From Aestuariivivens insulae (lineage in GTDB: Bacteria > Bacteroidota > Bacteroidia > Flavobacteriales > Flavobacteriaceae), in the NCBI RefSeq assembly GCF_022662195.1, contig NZ_JAKMCS010000009.1, positions 62,001 through 126,000 of the forward strand: a stretch of DNA of 64,000 nt, given 5' to 3'. Below, piece after piece: positions 9,604 to 21,879 of this stretch; within the stretch, counting starts at the first letter, position 1, and each line of letters starts with the position of its first letter. A model generated the notes under the pieces. The model did not search any database and was not told where the DNA came from. It saw nothing but the letters and a program-made list of their open reading frames with translations. A program made the position numbers and the translations under genes.

Positions 9604-9640
9604 TGTTCAGTATTCAGTGTTCAGTGTTCAGATTGCAGTA
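9604..9640. repeat. Orphan heptad repeat array (RTTCAGT units)
   Basis: Five consecutive degenerate 7-base units (GTTCAGT, ATTCAGT, GTTCAGT, GTTCAGA, TTGCAGT) follow the MarR stop codon. Same 7-base period and CAGT core as the arrays beside the broken four-helix-bundle gene at 15.9-16.4 kb. Here no gene is associated. Confidence 0.75.
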
Positions 9641-9804
9641 TGTTGTGCTATTGTCTTTATAAAATTAATTAAGGGCAGAAGACTTAGGCACAATGTTAAA
9701 AACTATACATATAAGTATAATAAGATTAAAAAATTTGTGTATTCGTGGCTAGGTTAATAATCGCACTTAGCAAAATTAACAATTAGAGAAGAAAGGAAAT
9801 TAAG

Positions 9805-14896: not shown

Positions 14897-15958
14897 ATGT
14901 CAATTAATCACATAGTAACACCATTAGATTCAGCCATACTCGATTCTAAAAAGCAATATATCTTTTACCATCGAATGATAGATTTTGCCTTAAAGGAATT
15001 GATAGTTATAGTACAAAGGCAGGGGTTGTGCAATCAGCAGGAAGTATTGTTGTTTAAGCAATATTGCGACCTGTTGTTGTATTCTATAGAAGCTATGCGC
15101 ATAAAATACATGTACGATGAAGAGGATAATATGAAAGTAGATTTAACAGATTCCGGTTTCCCCAACTATTTAGAGTTTAGATACTTGTTTAACGATTTAG
15201 AACTGCGAGAAGACTATTTACAAAAGCTTACGCCCATTGAGACGCTAAAGGAAGAGTTTTTGGACACATTAATGCATCATAAGCAACCCATTAAAAAGAG
15301 TAAACTGTTTCAGGCGGCATCCATTGTGTATTATACATCGGTTAAAAAGAACTATATATTTAATCGCTTTGTACAAGGAAAGATTCTAGCTGCTCCAAAA
15401 CATTCAGAAGAAGGGTATTTAACAAGTTGGAGCTTTTATGATGTGTCCCACAACCGGCCATTTATTTGTTATATGTATTTTGATTATGATGGAGATGAAA
15501 TAAACGATTATAAAGATAAAATTTACCAAGTTTTACAGACTGTAGCCGATAGGGATATGACCTTAGACACTATGGCTTATGCCATCGACAGACGGTTACC
15601 CAAAGTATCTCCAAAGTATCTAAAGCGTATCGATTTAGGCCCCATACACAATGTATTTGCAAAAGATGAAAACGAATTGACCCATGCCATTTTAGAAAGC
15701 ATAGGGAAAAAGGAAATTCCATTGGAGTCCTATGCTATTTCCTTAAAAATAGATGAGGTAAGATCTAGAGGTGAATTTAAAGAGGGTAGCTTTTTCAATA
15801 AGCAAACGCTTCAAAAATGGGATGACGTTTTAAAACAAGACTACGTATTGGCCCCACACAGGATTATTCAGTTATTTTATAATAAAATCCCAGAGCTTAT
15901 GAATAGGTTGGCTAAGCCCCCGATAGAAGTAAGCAGTTTGCAGTCAAGAAAAAATTAA
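14897..15958 (+). CDS. Hypothetical protein, AAA/Nudix cluster
   Basis: 353 residues, soluble, no signal peptide. I do not recognise the family. The N-terminal third is helical and rich in hydrophobics (YHRMIDFALKELIVIVQRQG). The middle has an acidic loop (YFDYDGDEINDYKDK), and the C-terminal half holds basic patches. Its last codons overlap the left heptad repeat array of the adjoining four-helix-bundle module: AGCAGTTTGCAGTCA encodes SLQS near the end. The original C-terminus may therefore have been replaced when that module arrived. It lies between the coiled-coil gene and the AAA ATPase in the same orientation. Confidence 0.65.
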   Translation: MSINHIVTPLDSAILDSKKQYIFYHRMIDFALKELIVIVQRQGLCNQQEVLLFKQYCDLLLYSIEAMRIKYMYDEEDNMKVDLTDSGFPNYLEFRYLFNDLELREDYLQKLTPIETLKEEFLDTLMHHKQPIKKSKLFQAASIVYYTSVKKNYIFNRFVQGKILAAPKHSEEGYLTSWSFYDVSHNRPFICYMYFDYDGDEINDYKDKIYQVLQTVADRDMTLDTMAYAIDRRLPKVSPKYLKRIDLGPIHNVFAKDENELTHAILESIGKKEIPLESYAISLKIDEVRSRGEFKEGSFFNKQTLQKWDDVLKQDYVLAPHRIIQLFYNKIPELMNRLAKPPIEVSSLQSRKN

Positions 15959-15962
15959 ATAA

Positions 15963-16414
15963 ATGTCATTTAAAACATTATTAGCTTACAAAAAGGGGTT
16001 TGATTTAGTAATTGAAATTTTTCATTTAACTAAAGATTTTCCAAAGTCCGAAATGTTTGGCTTAACGTCTCAAATGGTTCGCTCGAGTAGAACGACATGT
16101 TCAGCGATAGCTGAAAGTTACAGAAAGAGGCAATATGAAATGCCCGTTTACAAAAGTTGTAAACCCAACCGATATGTGATAATTAGGGCATCGCATCTGA
16201 CCTCTAAAAACAATAAATATTAACAGATGAAAAACATTTTAAAAGTAAACTGTCTGATGCTGATAGTGAAAACTCCGAAACGCAACTTTGGTTAGATTTT
16301 GCTTTAGCATGCAAATATATTTCTGAAGAGAAACTTGTAGAATTGCAGAATAAAAGTAAGGAAATAGGGAAACTCATCAATTATATGATGAACAACCCTG
16401 ATAAATTTAAATAA
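15963..16414 (+). pseudogene. Four-helix-bundle (S23/IVS-type) protein, broken by a 92-bp insertion
   Basis: The first 59 codons (MSFKTLLAYKKGFDLVIEIF..., MVRSSRTTCSAIAESYRKRQY) match the four-helix-bundle protein family first seen in 23S rRNA intervening sequences. The frame then diverges. Joining 16138 directly to 16231 restores a continuous frame (RKRQYEKHFKSKLSDADSEN, then WLDFALACKYISEE) down to TAA at 16412-16414. The restored protein would be about 119 residues, the family's normal length. The break is a 92-base insertion bounded by ATGA on both sides. The remaining 86-residue frame ends in insertion-derived sequence and is probably non-functional. Intact relatives bind partner proteins or RNA; the Avd protein of diversity-generating retroelements has this fold. 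Confidence 0.85.
16139..16230. mobile_element. 92-bp hairpin insertion inside the four-helix-bundle gene
   Basis: Insertion flanked by a 4-base direct repeat ATGA (16135-16138 and 16227-16230). Near its left end lies a perfect hairpin GTTTACAA-AAG-TTGTAAAC (16146-16164), enclosed by ATGCCC (16140-16145) and GGGCAT (16186-16191). No coding capacity. Size, hairpin and duplicated target suggest a MITE- or REP-like non-autonomous element. Confidence 0.7.
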
Positions 16415-16417
16415 TAC

Positions 16418-16453
16418 ATCAGACTGCTAACTGCATACTGATGACTGAATACT
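16418..16453. repeat. Right heptad array of broken four-helix-bundle module
   Basis: Units AGACTGC, TAACTGC, ATACTGA, TGACTGA, ATACTA with period 7. These are the complement of the CAGT heptads (AAGCAGT, TTGCAGT) at 15936-15949 just left of the gene, so the module is bounded by inverted heptad arrays. Confidence 0.75.
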
Positions 16454-16459
16454 AAATAA

Positions 16460-18427
16460 ATGGAACACAATTCAACATTTCCCATAAAATTATCTGAACT
16501 CGATGTACTTCGCGACGAAGCCACCTCCTATTTAAAAAGCATACAGTGGGAGCAGGGGGCAAGAGCAAAAAACAGAGATAAAAGCAATGGTAAGGATGAA
16601 TCTATATTATTGTATTTGTCAAGAGCAAACAATGGCTCCAATACAGGTGAAGTCACATCAGTTTCTAAAACCATCCTGGCCTTAAAGAAGCGTTTATTGC
16701 CAGATTCGGTAGCCATTCCCATTAATTTAAATCAGACCCTTTATGCAGTACAAGAAGGTATCACACTAGGTATTTGGATAAAGGATAGTTACTATGATGC
16801 ATCAGGTTTATCGAATTTAAATGAGAATAAATCGGCGTTGGATAATAATGGCAAGCGCGAGTTTGAAAGCAAAATGCATACCGCAACAGCTTTTATGTTG
16901 TTTGCTACAGCATATAAAATTTTAAATGATTTAAAGCCGCATGCATCCGATGATTTAAGTGTAATGAAACAAAAGTTTGCAGGCATTCCAGAGTTGTCAT
17001 TGCTATCGCCTATAAAGGGTATTTCATGTGCTTTGTTTTATTACGATAAATATTTAGGACATCCAGATATTGTTAAATCAGATAAAGATGTTGTAGACTT
17101 TACGGTGGTGTATTTTGAAGCATTGATTGATGAAATACAGCTACGAAAAAGCACGCTTGAATATACCGAAACCATTGAAGATAGAACCTATAAGTTAGAA
17201 AAGTCCGAGTTTGCCATTTCGGGCTGGAACAATGTATTTCAGGGCGCAGCCAAAAGTGTAGAGTTCAATAAAATTAAATTCGAACAAATAGTTGGAAACC
17301 GCGATGCCAAACACTTTGCACGACGCTTGACCGAACGTTTGTTGAGTTATGATTTTACGGCAAAAAAGAATCCGTTTCAAGAATTGGGAGGTTTTATGCC
17401 CGTATTTATGGGGTATGGTATACCAGGTACGGGAAAAAGTATGCTTATTGCGGCCATTGCCACGCGATTAAAAGAACATTGCGATACTTTAGATATCCCT
17501 TTTTTGTTTCACCCTATGCCAGATACATTAATATCGACCTTTCAAGGGGGGTCGGCAGAAAAAATGGTAGAATGGATGAAACCTTTGCAAGATCCTACAA
17601 AATTAATTTTTGCACCTATTGATGATGCCGAAAACAATTTGCAAGAGCGAACAGCTCAAGGTGTTTCTGCTGGTGTTAAGGAAGTAATAGGAGTGTTTTT
17701 AAGATACACCGAAGGCGCCTATGCCGTTAATTATGGCAACAGTTCTATAGGGCTGTTTACCAACCTTCCCGAAATGTTAGATAAGGCCGTAATTTCTAGG
17801 GTACAGGGTCGCTTTAAAATAGATGGAGCCAAAACAGAACACGACTTTTTGGACCAAGATTATTTGTGGTGGCGAAAAATTGATGACACCATGCCAGATT
17901 TTGTAAACATGCAAGGACCAGAAAATTATAGCTATTTGCAAGATCAAGGCTTGGCAAAAAATATGGGAGAGATTTTAAATGCCACCAATAAACCGGTTGA
18001 AGTTCGTGTCCATGAGATATATGACAAGGTAGAACAACAATTTAAAACCAACCAGCATTTGTTCTATGCCCAATTATATAAGGACATGCAACAAGCATTT
18101 CCATTCTTTTCATCACGCGATGTTAGGAATATCCAAAGTGCTGTATCCTTGCGATTAACCGATTTTGATTTGGAAGAAGATTGGTTTGAAAACCCAGAAA
18201 TATATTTTAAGAAAGACTACGATACGAAGTTTAACATGCTTCAGGAATTGATGCGTACCAATATGAAAGGATTGGATTTTTCAGAAATTCGCCGTCAAGA
18301 GGTCGTTCGTTATTTAGATAATGTAGCGACCATTGCAGATACCGATTTTAAACGCAAGGTCGATGTTCGGGTGAATCAATTGCATATAGAAACAGAGGCA
18401 AGACAACAATTTGAGAATGGAAAATAA
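16460..18427 (+). CDS. AAA family ATPase
   Basis: 655 residues. The N-terminal ~300 residues are a mostly helical region I do not recognise. The AAA core follows: Walker A GIPGTGKSML near residue 320, Walker B KLIFAPIDDAE near 381-391 (Asp-Asp in place of the common Asp-Glu), sensor-1-like GLFTNLPE near 431, and probable arginine fingers in ISRVQGRF near 445. The C-terminal ~150 residues are helical and charged. Single-core AAA proteins of this kind usually act as hexameric remodellers of proteins or membranes. It overlaps the next (Nudix) gene by 11 bases, so these two are translationally coupled. Neighbours are the coiled-coil protein upstream and membrane proteins downstream. The target is unknown. 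Confidence 0.8.
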   Translation: MEHNSTFPIKLSELDVLRDEATSYLKSIQWEQGARAKNRDKSNGKDESILLYLSRANNGSNTGEVTSVSKTILALKKRLLPDSVAIPINLNQTLYAVQEGITLGIWIKDSYYDASGLSNLNENKSALDNNGKREFESKMHTATAFMLFATAYKILNDLKPHASDDLSVMKQKFAGIPELSLLSPIKGISCALFYYDKYLGHPDIVKSDKDVVDFTVVYFEALIDEIQLRKSTLEYTETIEDRTYKLEKSEFAISGWNNVFQGAAKSVEFNKIKFEQIVGNRDAKHFARRLTERLLSYDFTAKKNPFQELGGFMPVFMGYGIPGTGKSMLIAAIATRLKEHCDTLDIPFLFHPMPDTLISTFQGGSAEKMVEWMKPLQDPTKLIFAPIDDAENNLQERTAQGVSAGVKEVIGVFLRYTEGAYAVNYGNSSIGLFTNLPEMLDKAVISRVQGRFKIDGAKTEHDFLDQDYLWWRKIDDTMPDFVNMQGPENYSYLQDQGLAKNMGEILNATNKPVEVRVHEIYDKVEQQFKTNQHLFYAQLYKDMQQAFPFFSSRDVRNIQSAVSLRLTDFDLEEDWFENPEIYFKKDYDTKFNMLQELMRTNMKGLDFSEIRRQEVVRYLDNVATIADTDFKRKVDVRVNQLHIETEARQQFENGK

Positions 18428-19007
18428 GCGCATTAAAAATGTAGTGTCGAATGTAATATCCCATGTTTGGGGTAAGTTGGAACGTATCGACTTCGATTAT
18501 AAATTTAAGAAGGGAGGCTGGAAACGTTTATCGCATGAAGCATACGGTAAGAGTGATGGTGTAGCCCTATTGTTGTACAATCCAGAATCGAAGCATGTTG
18601 TTCTGTCCAAACAATTTAGAATACCTGTGTATATAACAGGTGGGTCTAACGGTTATTCCATAGAGGTCTGTGGAGGAGCTGTCGACGATGGAGAATCACC
18701 AGAAGCCAGTGTTTTACGTGAGGCAAAGGAAGAACTTGGATATCATGTGGCCCGACTAAAACACATAAGTACGGTGTTCTTATCTCCGGGCATAGTTAGG
18801 GAGCGTGTTCACCTTTTTATAGCGACATATTCAGATTCCGATAAAATTAGTGATACAGGGGGTGGACTGGAAGCTGAAAACGAAGAAATAGAAGTGTTGG
18901 AACTACCATTTAATGAAGCGCTTCAAATGGTTGAAGATAACAGAATCATTGATGCAAGAACCATTATGTTATTGCAGTATATTAAGATTCATAAATTATT
19001 AGAATAA
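18417..19007 (+). CDS. Nudix hydrolase (NudK/ADP-ribose pyrophosphatase-like)
   Basis: 196 residues. The Nudix box is complete: GAVDDGESPEASVLREAKEE followed by LGY, matching GX5EX7REUXEEXGU, near residues 86-108. Upstream strands (GVALLLYNPESKHVVLSKQF, then RIPVY) and the long N-terminal beta region resemble the NudK/YffH and ADP-ribose pyrophosphatase group that cleaves nucleotide sugars or ADP-ribose. I place the start at the ATG at 18417; a TTG two codons upstream is also in frame. The start overlaps the end of the AAA gene, so both proteins are probably made together. A Nudix enzyme beside an AAA protein might handle a nucleotide-sugar or ADP-ribose-type signal; that is inference. Confidence 0.85.
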   Translation: MENKRIKNVVSNVISHVWGKLERIDFDYKFKKGGWKRLSHEAYGKSDGVALLLYNPESKHVVLSKQFRIPVYITGGSNGYSIEVCGGAVDDGESPEASVLREAKEELGYHVARLKHISTVFLSPGIVRERVHLFIATYSDSDKISDTGGGLEAENEEIEVLELPFNEALQMVEDNRIIDARTIMLLQYIKIHKLLE

Positions 19008-19011
19008 TATT

Positions 19012-19212
19012 GTCATTCCTGCGTGGCACACTGAGTTTTCCTGTGCTGAGCATAGTCGAAGTATCGAAGTGAAGGCAGGAATCTAATTTAAAATGAAAGG
19101 TGAGGATTTAGATAGAGTAATTGAAATTCTTAATTGAATTTTTTAACTCATTAATAATAAGATAGTAACATATTATAAATAAATAATGAGATTCCTGCCT
19201 TTGCAGGAATGA
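19012..19212. repeat. Composite inverted repeat (family 2, copy 1)
   Basis: Begins GTCATTCCTGCG, contains the TGCTGAGCATAGTCGAAGTA core, then AAGGCAGGAATC, a variable AT-rich spacer, and the inverted end GATTCCTGCC-TTT-GCAGGAATGA. Same layout and orientation as the copy at 21746-21871. The second hairpin supplies the first ATG of the next reading frame, so the true start there is probably the following ATG. Confidence 0.75.
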
Positions 19213-19217
19213 TAAAA

Positions 19218-20453
19218 ATGGACAAACTAAAAGTAGCCAATTTATACAGAAGTGAACTTATTCCCGTAAGCGGGAAATTGGTTGAGCGTTATAACAAATG
19301 CTTGGTGAAACTTGGTTTTTCGGAAACCAAACTGAATACTTTCCATATAGACGGCATAGGTTGGAGCCCAGAAGTGGCAGAAGAAAAAGATAATTTGTTC
19401 TACCTCAATAACGGTGAAGCTAATCCGCATGGAATTATTATTTCCCCATTGCAACAAGGAAAACCAGTGTATTTCTCTTTCCATAGCTTCGATAGGGACA
19501 TCATGAAGTTCATATTTAAGGTCCATGGAGAGAAAATAAAGGATATTACTCGCGATTGTGCCATTTGTTTGGATTTCGACCAAGGCATAGATGCATTTTA
19601 TGAGCCATTGGATGTTTTAAAATATAATGTCATTACGATTCATTTCCATTTGATAAATGGTTTGGTCAACATTCAAAAAGAACAACTGGAATTGGTAGAT
19701 GCCTTTAATAGAGACCATAATTTTATTGATGAAAGCCTGCATCAGCAATTGTTGGATTCGGCTAAGAAGCATGGCGATTTAAGGCATCGCGATTTAGATT
19801 TGCATGAATTGCAACATACAACAGATTCTTTTTATACAAAGGCTTTTGGAGGGGTTTATGTGTTGCGTGATTTTATTACGCCAATCGTGGTTTTTGAAGA
19901 CGAAAAATGGTATAAGGAGGCCATAAAAGATACGAGTCATGAGGTGCTTATTTACCATATACAACAGCCAGAGCTCATGGACAAATTACGGGACCACCTT
20001 ATTATTGAGTATAATTTGGATCTAGTCGTGAAGACAGAACGGTACGAACGCATCAAGAAATATGAAATGGCACAGTGCCTAAAAGACACACAACACCCCA
20101 TAAAAGAAATTCTAAACGACCCTATACTATATAAAAGCTATCTTAACAAACTGGATATGGCGTCAAGAAAAAGGGTAATGGGCGTAGAACGCTATTTGGA
20201 AAAATCTGAAATGAGCAACGAATATAAAATTGCTGATATAGTCGATTTTAAATTTTTCGAAGCCCTTCACCAACCCCATTCATCCTTAGATGCTAAACAT
20301 CAAGATTTAATTTGGAAGTTGTTAGTTAATGTTTCACCAAAAGATATACTGTATTGGTATTGGTACGATAAAGAAGCTTTTTATAAGAGCTTTGAAACTT
20401 GGGACGATTCTTTTAAGGACTGGGTGGTTGAGACTATATGTAATAATATATAG
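19218..20453 (+). CDS. Conserved hypothetical protein (DUF6638-like?), AAA/Nudix cluster
   Basis: About 411 residues, soluble, no signal peptide. I believe it belongs to an uncharacterised Bacteroidota family (DUF6638), from memory only. Visible features are a compact N-terminal domain (NLYRSELIPVSGKLVERYNK), a possible metal or catalytic cluster HHRD-like segment (KHGDLRHRDLDLHELQHTT, near 195-215), and a charged helical C-terminus. I start it at the ATG at 19218, because the in-frame ATG at 19209 lies in the preceding repeat hairpin. It is the fifth gene of the same-strand series and is followed by a 7-base repeat array starting about 10 bases after its stop. Confidence 0.65.
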   Translation: MDKLKVANLYRSELIPVSGKLVERYNKCLVKLGFSETKLNTFHIDGIGWSPEVAEEKDNLFYLNNGEANPHGIIISPLQQGKPVYFSFHSFDRDIMKFIFKVHGEKIKDITRDCAICLDFDQGIDAFYEPLDVLKYNVITIHFHLINGLVNIQKEQLELVDAFNRDHNFIDESLHQQLLDSAKKHGDLRHRDLDLHELQHTTDSFYTKAFGGVYVLRDFITPIVVFEDEKWYKEAIKDTSHEVLIYHIQQPELMDKLRDHLIIEYNLDLVVKTERYERIKKYEMAQCLKDTQHPIKEILNDPILYKSYLNKLDMASRKRVMGVERYLEKSEMSNEYKIADIVDFKFFEALHQPHSSLDAKHQDLIWKLLVNVSPKDILYWYWYDKEAFYKSFETWDDSFKDWVVETICNNI

Positions 20454-20462
20454 ATTGAGGTT

Positions 20463-20698
20463 TGGAGTATGAAGCAGGAAGCATGGAGTATGGAGCAGGA
20501 AGCGTGAAGTGTGAAGCTTGGAGCATGAAGCTTGGAGCATGAAGCATGGAGTATGAAGTATGGAGCGTGAAGTATGAAGCATGGAGCATGGAGCATGGAG
20601 CATGAAGTATGGAGTATGAAGTATGAAGTATGGAGTATGAAGTATGGAGTATGGAGTATGAAGCATGGAGTATGGAGAGTGCGATGATAGAGTATGAA
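20463..20698. repeat. Heptad tandem array (GRAGYAT units), left of intact four-helix-bundle gene
   Basis: About 33 degenerate copies of a 7-base unit, mostly GAAGTAT, GGAGTAT, GAAGCAT and GGAGCAT. Read in reverse it gives a spurious Leu-His-Ser/Ala-Pro/Thr repeat frame. No signs of translation. It resembles the heptanucleotide short tandem repeats known from cyanobacteria. Confidence 0.9.
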
Positions 20699-20737
20699 GA
20701 TTAACTTAACCTATAAAAGAAATTAAAATTTAAACAG

Positions 20738-21091
20738 ATGAAATTTAAATTTGAAGATTTGATTATTTGGCAAAAAGCTATGGATTTGGGAGAAGATATG
20801 AATGTGTTGGCATCAAAGTTACCTAAAGAAGAGCTTTATAATTTATCTTCACAATTGAGAAGAGCAGCAGATTCTATTGCACTAAATATTTCAGAAGGCT
20901 CCATTTTACAATCAGTTGCAGAAAACAGAAAGTTCCTGGGATATGCCATTCGTTCAATAGCCGAAGTTGTTACATGTCTTCATAAAGCCAAAAGAAGAAA
21001 CTATATACCAAAAGAGGAATTCTTTAAGTACTATAACGATTGTTTTGATATTATGAATATGACCATTGCATTTAGAAATAAAGTTAAATAA
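20738..21091 (+). CDS. Four-helix-bundle protein (S23/IVS, Avd-like fold)
   Basis: 117 residues, the normal family length. Motifs are FEDLIIWQKAMDLGEDMN at the start, YNLSSQLRRAADSIALNISEG in helix two, and a helical C-terminus. The family includes proteins encoded in 23S rRNA intervening sequences and the Avd accessory protein of diversity-generating retroelements; most chromosomal copies have no known role. This copy is intact and flanked by heptad arrays that are complementary on the two sides (GAAG-type left, CTTC-type right). The ATG lies 39 bases after the left array. No reverse transcriptase lies in the window, so a DGR is not supported. Confidence 0.85.
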   Translation: MKFKFEDLIIWQKAMDLGEDMNVLASKLPKEELYNLSSQLRRAADSIALNISEGSILQSVAENRKFLGYAIRSIAEVVTCLHKAKRRNYIPKEEFFKYYNDCFDIMNMTIAFRNKVK

Positions 21092-21228
21092 TTAAAAAGT
21101 ACTTCATGCTTCCTGCTTCGTGCTTCAAACCAAAAAACTATAAGAATATGACCATTACATTTAGAAATAAAGTCACATTGTTAAATCGTACTTCAAGCTT
21201 CAGGCTTCGTACTTAAAACCAATAACTA
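21055..21228. repeat. Tandem duplication of the four-helix gene 3' end plus right heptad array
   Basis: The segment from GAATATGACCATT through ACCAAAAAACTATAA (21055-21143) is repeated with changes at 21144-21228, an offset of 89 bases. Each copy carries a heptad array in the CTTC orientation (21101-21128 ACTTCAT/GCTTCCT/GCTTCGT/GCTTCAA; 21189-21213), which is the complement of the left array at 20463-20698. Confidence 0.8.
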
Positions 21229-21743
21229 TGACACTAGAACTCATCATTTTTATTGCTTCCATACTTTTTGGAGCATTAATATACTGGCGTGAATCGCAAG
21301 GCAATCGCTTATATCGCTTTTTTAATAAGCTAATGTATTCAAAAGATCTACAAATGAAACCAACCGATAAAACAGGGTTTGTTTATCAGCAAAAATTCAT
21401 CATGAGGTTGGTTTTTATTGGATTTCTATTTCTGATTGGGATTCTCGTTACGCGGTTTTTAATTCCCATAGACTTAGCGACTATTTCCATTTTTGCTTCA
21501 ATGGTAGTGGGAACATTGGTAGGGACTTACTTGGCAAATTTCATTTTTAAGTCTAGTGAGGTTATTGAGGAAAAAACCGAATCATTAGAAGATATAGTTC
21601 ACGATACCATCGAAAAAGGAAAAGATTTGATTGAGGACTTAAAAAAAGAGGATAAAGAAGCTATTGAGGCACCAAAAGAAATGCCCAAGACAGAGGAGAA
21701 AAGTGCTCGTGAAAGGCTAAAGGACAAAGGATATTTGAAATGA
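21228..21743 (+). CDS. Membrane protein with charged cytoplasmic tail, AAA/Nudix cluster
   Basis: 171 residues with three probable transmembrane helices: LELIIFIASILFGALIYW, FIMRLVFIGFLFLIGILVT and ATISIFASMVVGTLVGTYLA. A charged coiled-coil-like tail follows (EEKTESLEDIVHDTIEKGKD, then LIEDLKKEDKEAI), ending ARERLKDKGYLK. Not recognised. The duplicated four-helix 3' segment runs right up to its ATG, so any original promoter or leader has been altered. The long acidic/basic tail could be a docking site for the cytosolic coiled-coil or AAA protein; that is speculation. Confidence 0.65.
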   Translation: MTLELIIFIASILFGALIYWRESQGNRLYRFFNKLMYSKDLQMKPTDKTGFVYQQKFIMRLVFIGFLFLIGILVTRFLIPIDLATISIFASMVVGTLVGTYLANFIFKSSEVIEEKTESLEDIVHDTIEKGKDLIEDLKKEDKEAIEAPKEMPKTEEKSARERLKDKGYLK

Positions 21744-21745
21744 TT

Positions 21746-21871
21746 GTCATTCCTGCGTGTCACCCAGAGCTTTCCTGTGCTGAGCATAGTCGAAGTATCG
21801 AAGTGAAGGCAGGAATCCACATTAAAATTTGAACTAAAATTAATAAGATTCCCGCCTACGCGGGAATGACA
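21746..21871. repeat. Composite inverted repeat (family 2, copy 2)
   Basis: GTCATTCCTGCG, then the TGCTGAGCATAGTCGAAGTA core, then AAGGCAGGAATCC, a spacer, and the inverted arm GATTCCCGCC-TA-CGCGGGAATGACA. Same orientation as the copy at 19012-19212. It ends 8 bases before the next ATG. Confidence 0.8.
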
Positions 21872-21879
21872 GAAAGAAC

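Follow-up and report, generated by a model that had tools for sequence, protein, structure and literature searches.

Four-helix-bundle genes between operon genes of Bacteroidota are often flanked by complementary heptad arrays and resemble 23S rRNA intervening sequences

The 23S rRNA intervening sequence (IVS) of Coxiella is about 430 nt long, is closed by a 28-bp terminal stem, and is a target of RNase III cleavage; just ahead of its S23p open reading frame (ORF), the heptamer GACAGAT is repeated in tandem two to three times, with variation among strains, according to the accessible part of the published account (PMC4990558). Here, we analyze two modules in a 64,000-nt stretch of the genome of Aestuariivivens insulae (Flavobacteriaceae; contig NZ_JAKMCS010000009.1, positions 62,001 to 126,000), referred to as the window, together with related loci in other genomes. 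In these modules, tandem 7-bp or 8-bp units form the two arms of an inverted repeat, and the loop contains a small S23p/four-helix-bundle gene (TIGR02436 family). The short tandemly repeated repetitive (STRR) sequences of cyanobacteria are heptamer arrays, too. Further arrays are described with the unit TAACTGA in Beggiatoaceae (PMC4679880) and with GGGAATC/GGGGATT in Xanthomonas and Nostoc (PMC4692102), and the names of the four-helix-bundle gene are absent from the accessible portions of both papers. Members of the 23S_rRNA_IVP family adjoin cas4 and cas6 according to the available part of PMC3936711. A link of heptad arms to this gene family outside rRNA was not found in the literature searched, which left subscription journals mostly uncovered.

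Module 2 (20459-21220) carries an intact gene on the forward strand (20738-21091, 117 aa). Its left arm (20459-20682) starts 5 nt past the upstream stop codon and comprises about 30 GAAG/GGAG-type 7-bp units (tandem-repeat rows 20463-20677). The best-paired stretch is formed by the outermost 32 nt (20459-20490), which pair with the first right-arm copy (21100-21131) at a score of 24; the best of 1000 shuffles reached 16 (15 when only this copy was considered). A second right-arm copy (21189-21220), whose end lies 7 nt ahead of the next ORF, scored 18 against a maximum of 13 in 1000 shuffles. The two right arrays are a single array that was duplicated along with the gene end by an 89-bp tandem duplication (two copies, 21055-21229). 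In module 1 (15928-16439), the left arm (15928-15945) consists of two CAGT-type units within the last codons, at the 3' end, of an upstream 353-aa ORF; it pairs with the best-paired stretch of the right arm (16422-16439, with more ACTG units up to about 16453) at a score of 14, exceeding the maximum of 11 in 1000 shuffles. The forward-strand gene of this module is broken into two parts, 15963-16139 and 16227-16414, which match TIGR02436 positions 2-52 and 50-107, respectively. Between the parts lies an insertion (about 87 bp, 16140-16226, as read from the sequence) with a 5-bp direct repeat, ATGAA, on either side (16135-16139 and 16227-16231). The same genome (G000) and a relative (G001) contain several further matches to 16132-16245, and this short repeat is probably a miniature inserted element.

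The complementarity extends well beyond the window. The A. insulae genome yielded 14 TIGR02436 matches that represent 13 genes, the broken one being counted twice. Complementary arms were seen by eye at all 13 genes, and the unit was almost always specific to the locus; among the 12 genes besides module 1, 11 reached the 95th percentile of control genes and seven beat 95% of swapped flanks. Family-wide, we assembled 201 TIGR02436 loci (185 from Bacteroidota and 16 from outside), which are not a random sample: mostly best matches to the hidden Markov model were chosen, 80 loci were contributed by a scan that used alignment A2, and fadB-fadA accounts for 53 of the 201, including 30 from the A2 scan. 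Each left flank was scored against the reverse complement of the right flank at 200 loci (L190 was omitted for its short flank; the broken window gene, L013/L014, stands outside the 200 and was scored on its own). A clear majority of family loci have paired arms: relative to 321 control genes, which were other genes of the A. insulae genome, 138 of the 200 flank pairs reached the 95th percentile and 102 the 99th. Compared to 60 swapped flanks, 112 loci beat 95% and 64 beat all of them.

Repeat periods were evaluated for 116 of the 201 loci. A lag of 7 scored best for 86 left and 81 right arms and a lag of 8 for 21 of either, whereas each of these lags was best in only 7 of 116 control stretches. 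The two arms agreed on period 7 at 76 loci and on period 8 at 16. The sequence-only reading of the two modules, which had taken their heptads to be complementary within but different between modules and had implied that such arrays recur around the family, is thus borne out; its 7-base unit applies to most loci, but some have 8-bp units and L012 appears by eye to have a 10-bp unit. The 5' arm contained more G than C at 118 of 127 strong loci, less at six, and equal amounts at three. At eight cyanobacterial plasmid loci (self scores 12 to 39), most left arrays were G-rich and most right arrays C-rich by eye.

TIGR02436 was present in 4/4 genomes of the genus, 89/120 of the family, 223/296 of the phylum Bacteroidota, and 99/101 of Flavobacterium. 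A plasmid collection contained 24 matching records, mostly cyanobacterial. A phage origin was considered and rejected; the protein of L044, one family member, had no match in a phage collection.

Within Bacteroidota, both neighbors were co-directional with the gene at 176 of 185 loci (9 of 16 at the other loci), and only one locus showed the reversed placement. The 201 loci represent about 101 distinct sites, including fadB-fadA, carA-carB, a resistance-nodulation-division (RND) adaptor-permease pair, a gene ahead of hisA, and a split metH. For fadB, fadA, carA, carB, the RND adaptor and permease, hisA, and metH, the identity was checked with one example each; carB next to a Xanthomonas gene was identified by reading of the locus only, and some other neighbor genes bear provisional names. 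On a Nostoc plasmid (L232), the gene is opposed to both neighbors within an nrdB-nrdA pair, and on a Calothrix plasmid (L237) it is likewise opposed to both neighbors, between two transport genes.

RNA folding of 140 of the 201 loci, at which both neighbors are co-directional and within 250 nt, gave 21.8 left-right pairs versus 8.4 with the right flank swapped. At least 12 flank-flank pairs were predicted in 105 of the 140 modules versus 31% of the swaps, in line with the stem with the gene in its loop that had been proposed from the window. In those 105 modules, the median distance from the first base of the upstream stop codon to the stem was 3 nt, and that from the stem end to the downstream start was 7 nt. 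According to these predictions, the stem in the operon transcript would close off an insert of about 460 nt and leave only about 10 nt between the stop codon of one host gene and the start of the next. By rejoining the neighbors in this way, the stem would leave the host transcript little disturbed, as an rRNA IVS does by lengthening an existing helix. At L036, the right array is seemingly read as the first codons (NNQQPTTNNQ) of a downstream metH-like ORF.

The module 2 protein matched TIGR02436 with 99.8 bits and PF05635 with 105.5 bits in profile searches. Its predicted structure consists of four helices (predicted local distance difference test score, pLDDT, 94.9), and the nearest solved fold is 2gsc. 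The protein family is under strong purifying selection, with a median ratio of nonsynonymous to synonymous substitution rates (dN/dS) of 0.08 in 43 pairs, which indicates that the gene does something; an in-frame stop occurred in 15 of the 201 matches.

Comparisons of sites suggest repeated entry, long retention, and loss. Among the 40 closest gene pairs listed, 38 shared the same site and two had a neighbor that could not be matched; near-identical copies at different sites were not seen among these pairs, and hence no recent transposition was caught. Genes with more similar proteins also had more similar arms; this held within a site and, to a lesser degree, between sites (r = 0.227 for the latter, against at most 0.096 in permutations). 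Similar genes with similar arms occupied different sites in related genera (L137/L140 and L150; L143 and L154/L159). In the protein tree, the fadB-fadA label needed eight changes, at least three of them forced by well-supported branches (the alignment has few columns and the tree many unresolved forks); this site was thus entered more than once. The idea that the module is a mobile unit is partly supported by the number of sites, by repeated entry at one of them, and by arms that follow the protein across sites, but not by any transposition caught in progress.

In Flavobacterium, the fadB-fadA site alternates between modules with the gene, heptad hairpins without it, and empty gaps only a few bases long. 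The set comprised 70 loci from a search of the genus (30 best matches to a module-holding query and 40 hand-picked) and seven earlier module loci. The 70 loci were classified as 38 hairpins, 13 empty gaps, nine modules, and 10 others, where L286, counted among the hairpins, is a repeat of a different, GC-rich type and the "other" rows L289 and L305 begin gene-like. In the gene-less hairpins, left GCAAG units pair with right CTTGC units and ATAGA with TCTAT, and chimeric arms occur. On a tree of about 800 nt with L274 misplaced, which is weak evidence, the states required 32 changes compared to a shuffled mean of 35.6 (minimum 31) and are thus hardly clustered. Gene loss was considered as the source of these hairpins and given little weight, as their arm types (TAGAATA, GAAGCAA) differ from those of the local modules (AGTATTAAG). 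Entire gene-less hairpins were found in tandem duplicate at L249, L252, and L294. The fadB-fadA gaps of L270, L273, L283, and L286 contained a different, GC-rich palindrome, which shows that this gap accepts several kinds of hairpins.

A gene-loss origin is more plausible for the gene-less remnants at the two window sites, where the unit types agree. Of 30 genomes compared at site 1, three contained the gene and six had short gene-less gaps with CAGT-type units, and the others lacked such units. At site 2, again in 30 genomes, two had the gene, one retained a gene-less GAAG remnant, and the rest were without an array. We rejected site 1 of G001 as an untouched empty site, since degraded CAGT units remain in its gap and CAGT hairpins without a gene occur at this site in relatives; site 2 of G001 appears empty. 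Occupied and empty copies of one site, as expected for an inserted unit by the sequence-only reading, were therefore found at window site 2 and at fadB-fadA of Flavobacterium. The same reading had treated gene and arrays as one indivisible unit, and this part is not supported in view of the gene-less hairpins in Flavobacterium and the gene-less remnants at both window sites, the kind of finding that it had itself named as contrary. Its suggestion that the two arrays are rewritten together holds even in gene-less hairpins, where the arm types also change jointly. Together with the remnants at the window sites, this joint change indicates that the gene is not needed in cis.

Further repeats were noted outside the modules. 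In the window, a one-sided TTCAGTA array (9604-9641) lies between two genes, with neither a four-helix-bundle gene nor a clear partner arm, and inverted GTCATTCCTGCG-type repeats lie between genes at 19009-19215 and 21744-21876, parts of which match several other places in G000 and G001. Elsewhere in the genome, long single 7-bp and 8-bp arrays with no adjoining four-helix-bundle gene occur between genes at L228 (8581-8702) and L230 (10471-10645). In small-number counts over 400 kb per group, arrays with 7- or 8-bp units numbered three in the A. insulae genome, three in a group of three other genomes with the gene, and none in a group of three gene-less genomes.

These findings point to a widespread, little-noticed type of inserted element; the mobility of the elements and the function of the protein are both inferred. 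We lean, if only slightly, toward regarding the modules as operon-dwelling counterparts of 23S rRNA IVS, located between co-directional genes. Judging from the site comparisons, such elements would enter a gap, their gene would be kept working by selection over long periods, and it would sometimes be lost, leaving a gene-less hairpin that keeps changing or decays. Several observations weigh against the IVS-like interpretation. By complementarity score, 62 of the 200 loci (weak arms or none) were indistinguishable from control genes. The gene is opposed to both neighbors at three of the eight fetched loci on cyanobacterial plasmids, which fits poorly with dependence on an operon promoter. Among the site 1 remnants, complementarity was significant by shuffling in only one of six tested (L382, p = 0.005; others 0.055 to 0.53), and solitary single-arm arrays without a gene exist. 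The suggested link to the rRNA elements draws on the protein family, the anatomy, and one paper (PMC4990558). Finally, module arms contained 222 G-U and 274 A-C mismatches (G-U in excess at 36 loci, A-C at 57, ties at 34), and gene-less hairpins 27 and 60, respectively.

The mismatch counts also concern the upkeep of the arms. Selection on the sense RNA as the main cause of arm matching predicts more G-U than A-C mismatches, and was rejected because the counts go the opposite way. As G-U does not exceed A-C and the arms change together without the gene, we prefer a process in which slippage would alter the unit in one arm and DNA template switching would copy the change into the other. Arm matching thus looks like the work of template switching, which is known from other work to generate and repair stems and is said to give asymmetric base-pair frequencies (accessible part of PMC8794818); it may bear on the G-rich 5' arm, too. 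A wider proposal is speculative, and we hold it as a minority view: the modules could belong to a general class of fold-neutral inserts that are silent in any transcript and whose stems are matched by DNA copying rather than selection. The few members located in rRNA would then be the rRNA IVS, remnants would survive as gene-less hairpins and perhaps as many of the known heptamer arrays, and the S23/Avd-fold pentamer would be a dedicated factor and the source of Avd.

It appears unlikely to us that the modules are instead owned by the host for regulation, with the protein binding its own heptad stem and tuning the ratio or timing of the two neighbors. Such a role would agree with the strong purifying selection on the protein, with long vertical retention across genera at sites such as fadB-fadA and metH, and with the relation of arm to protein similarity that persists between different sites. 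It is difficult to reconcile with about 101 distinct sites that share no common theme, with presence that flips among close relatives and genes that are lost while the hairpin remains, and with a gene number per genome of 13 in A. insulae versus 4, 3, and 1 in three congeners.

We consider it distinctly improbable that the module mobilizes itself through its protein, for example by assisting, like Avd, a reverse transcriptase in copying the looped RNA into new operons. That the gene in Bacteroidota almost always follows the direction of its operon (176 loci versus one) is what insertion through RNA would produce, the repeated entries at fadB-fadA and the similar genes and arms at different sites of related genera point the same way, and Foldseek matched the protein to Avd chains (8ub7, 4dwl; TM-score ~0.8, E 0.025-0.25, sequence identity 8-9%). 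However, a reverse transcriptase (PF00078) was detected, at the level of whole genomes, in only 27 of 89 gene-bearing genomes and in 6 of 31 gene-less genomes; G010 has 17 family genes and no PF00078 match. Reverse-transcriptase dependence was rejected on these counts, and both the lack of near-identical genes at different sites among the 40 closest pairs listed and the lack of a phage match for L044 weigh against self-mobilization. That plain slippage produced heptad arrays by chance in intergenic DNA, with the genes merely tolerating them, is hardly credible even though many bacteria have more heptamers than tandem repeats of any other unit length (accessible parts of PMC4679880 and PMC4692102) and gene-less single-arm arrays occur, because slippage alone gives no matching inverted partner beyond a gene, swapped-flank and random-gene controls scored far lower, and the gene-less genomes contained no arrays in the small counts above.

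On the IVS-like reading, the family whose members carry the annotation "four helix bundle protein" or "S23 ribosomal protein" in thousands of genomes would gain a common anatomy, an operon gap with a heptad stem. This reading also joins three puzzles that the literature, as far as accessible, treats apart: rRNA intervening sequences, heptamer arrays, and stand-alone Avd relatives. Moreover, the co-changing arms offer a natural case for weighing template switching against RNA selection.

Among known systems, Avd of diversity-generating retroelements shares its fold with the module protein, which is of the 2gsc/2rld type; these two solved relatives have five chains per entry and are pentamers. 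The modules differ from such retroelements in that most gene-bearing genomes lack a reverse transcriptase and sequence identity to Avd is as low as 8-9%. Inverted-repeat elements of the type formed by repetitive extragenic palindromes (REP) and REP-associated tyrosine transposases (RAYT) also combine a single gene between inverted repeats with gene-less hairpins elsewhere; the modules have no transposase of that type, and their arm sequence depends on the locus. At L233 and L235, on cyanobacterial plasmids, the gene lies between co-directional cas genes (cas4/cas6), like the family members in PMC3936711, whose available text does not mention arrays. The known heptamer arrays resemble the module arms as intergenic tandem heptamers, often between co-directional genes and with a genome-dependent unit, but are described, in the accessible parts of PMC4679880 and PMC4692102, as direct repeats without a four-helix-bundle gene or a matching far arm. 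In comparison with 23S IVS, both window modules lie between protein genes rather than in an rRNA gene and RNase III processing is putative; hence, we file them as IVS-like and not as IVS. Unlike IVS, the modules occur between operon genes, have locus-specific heptad or octad arrays in both arms, and are present in many copies and at many sites per genome. They do have the terminal inverted repeat that closes a stem and the S23p/23S_rRNA_IVP ORF (TIGR02436, PF05635). With the S23p-containing IVS of Leptospira and Coxiella, as described in the accessible part of PMC4990558, they further share a length of about 430-460 nt, the position of the gene in the loop of the terminal inverted repeat, a sporadic distribution with hairpin-only relatives, and, in Coxiella, heptamers before the gene.

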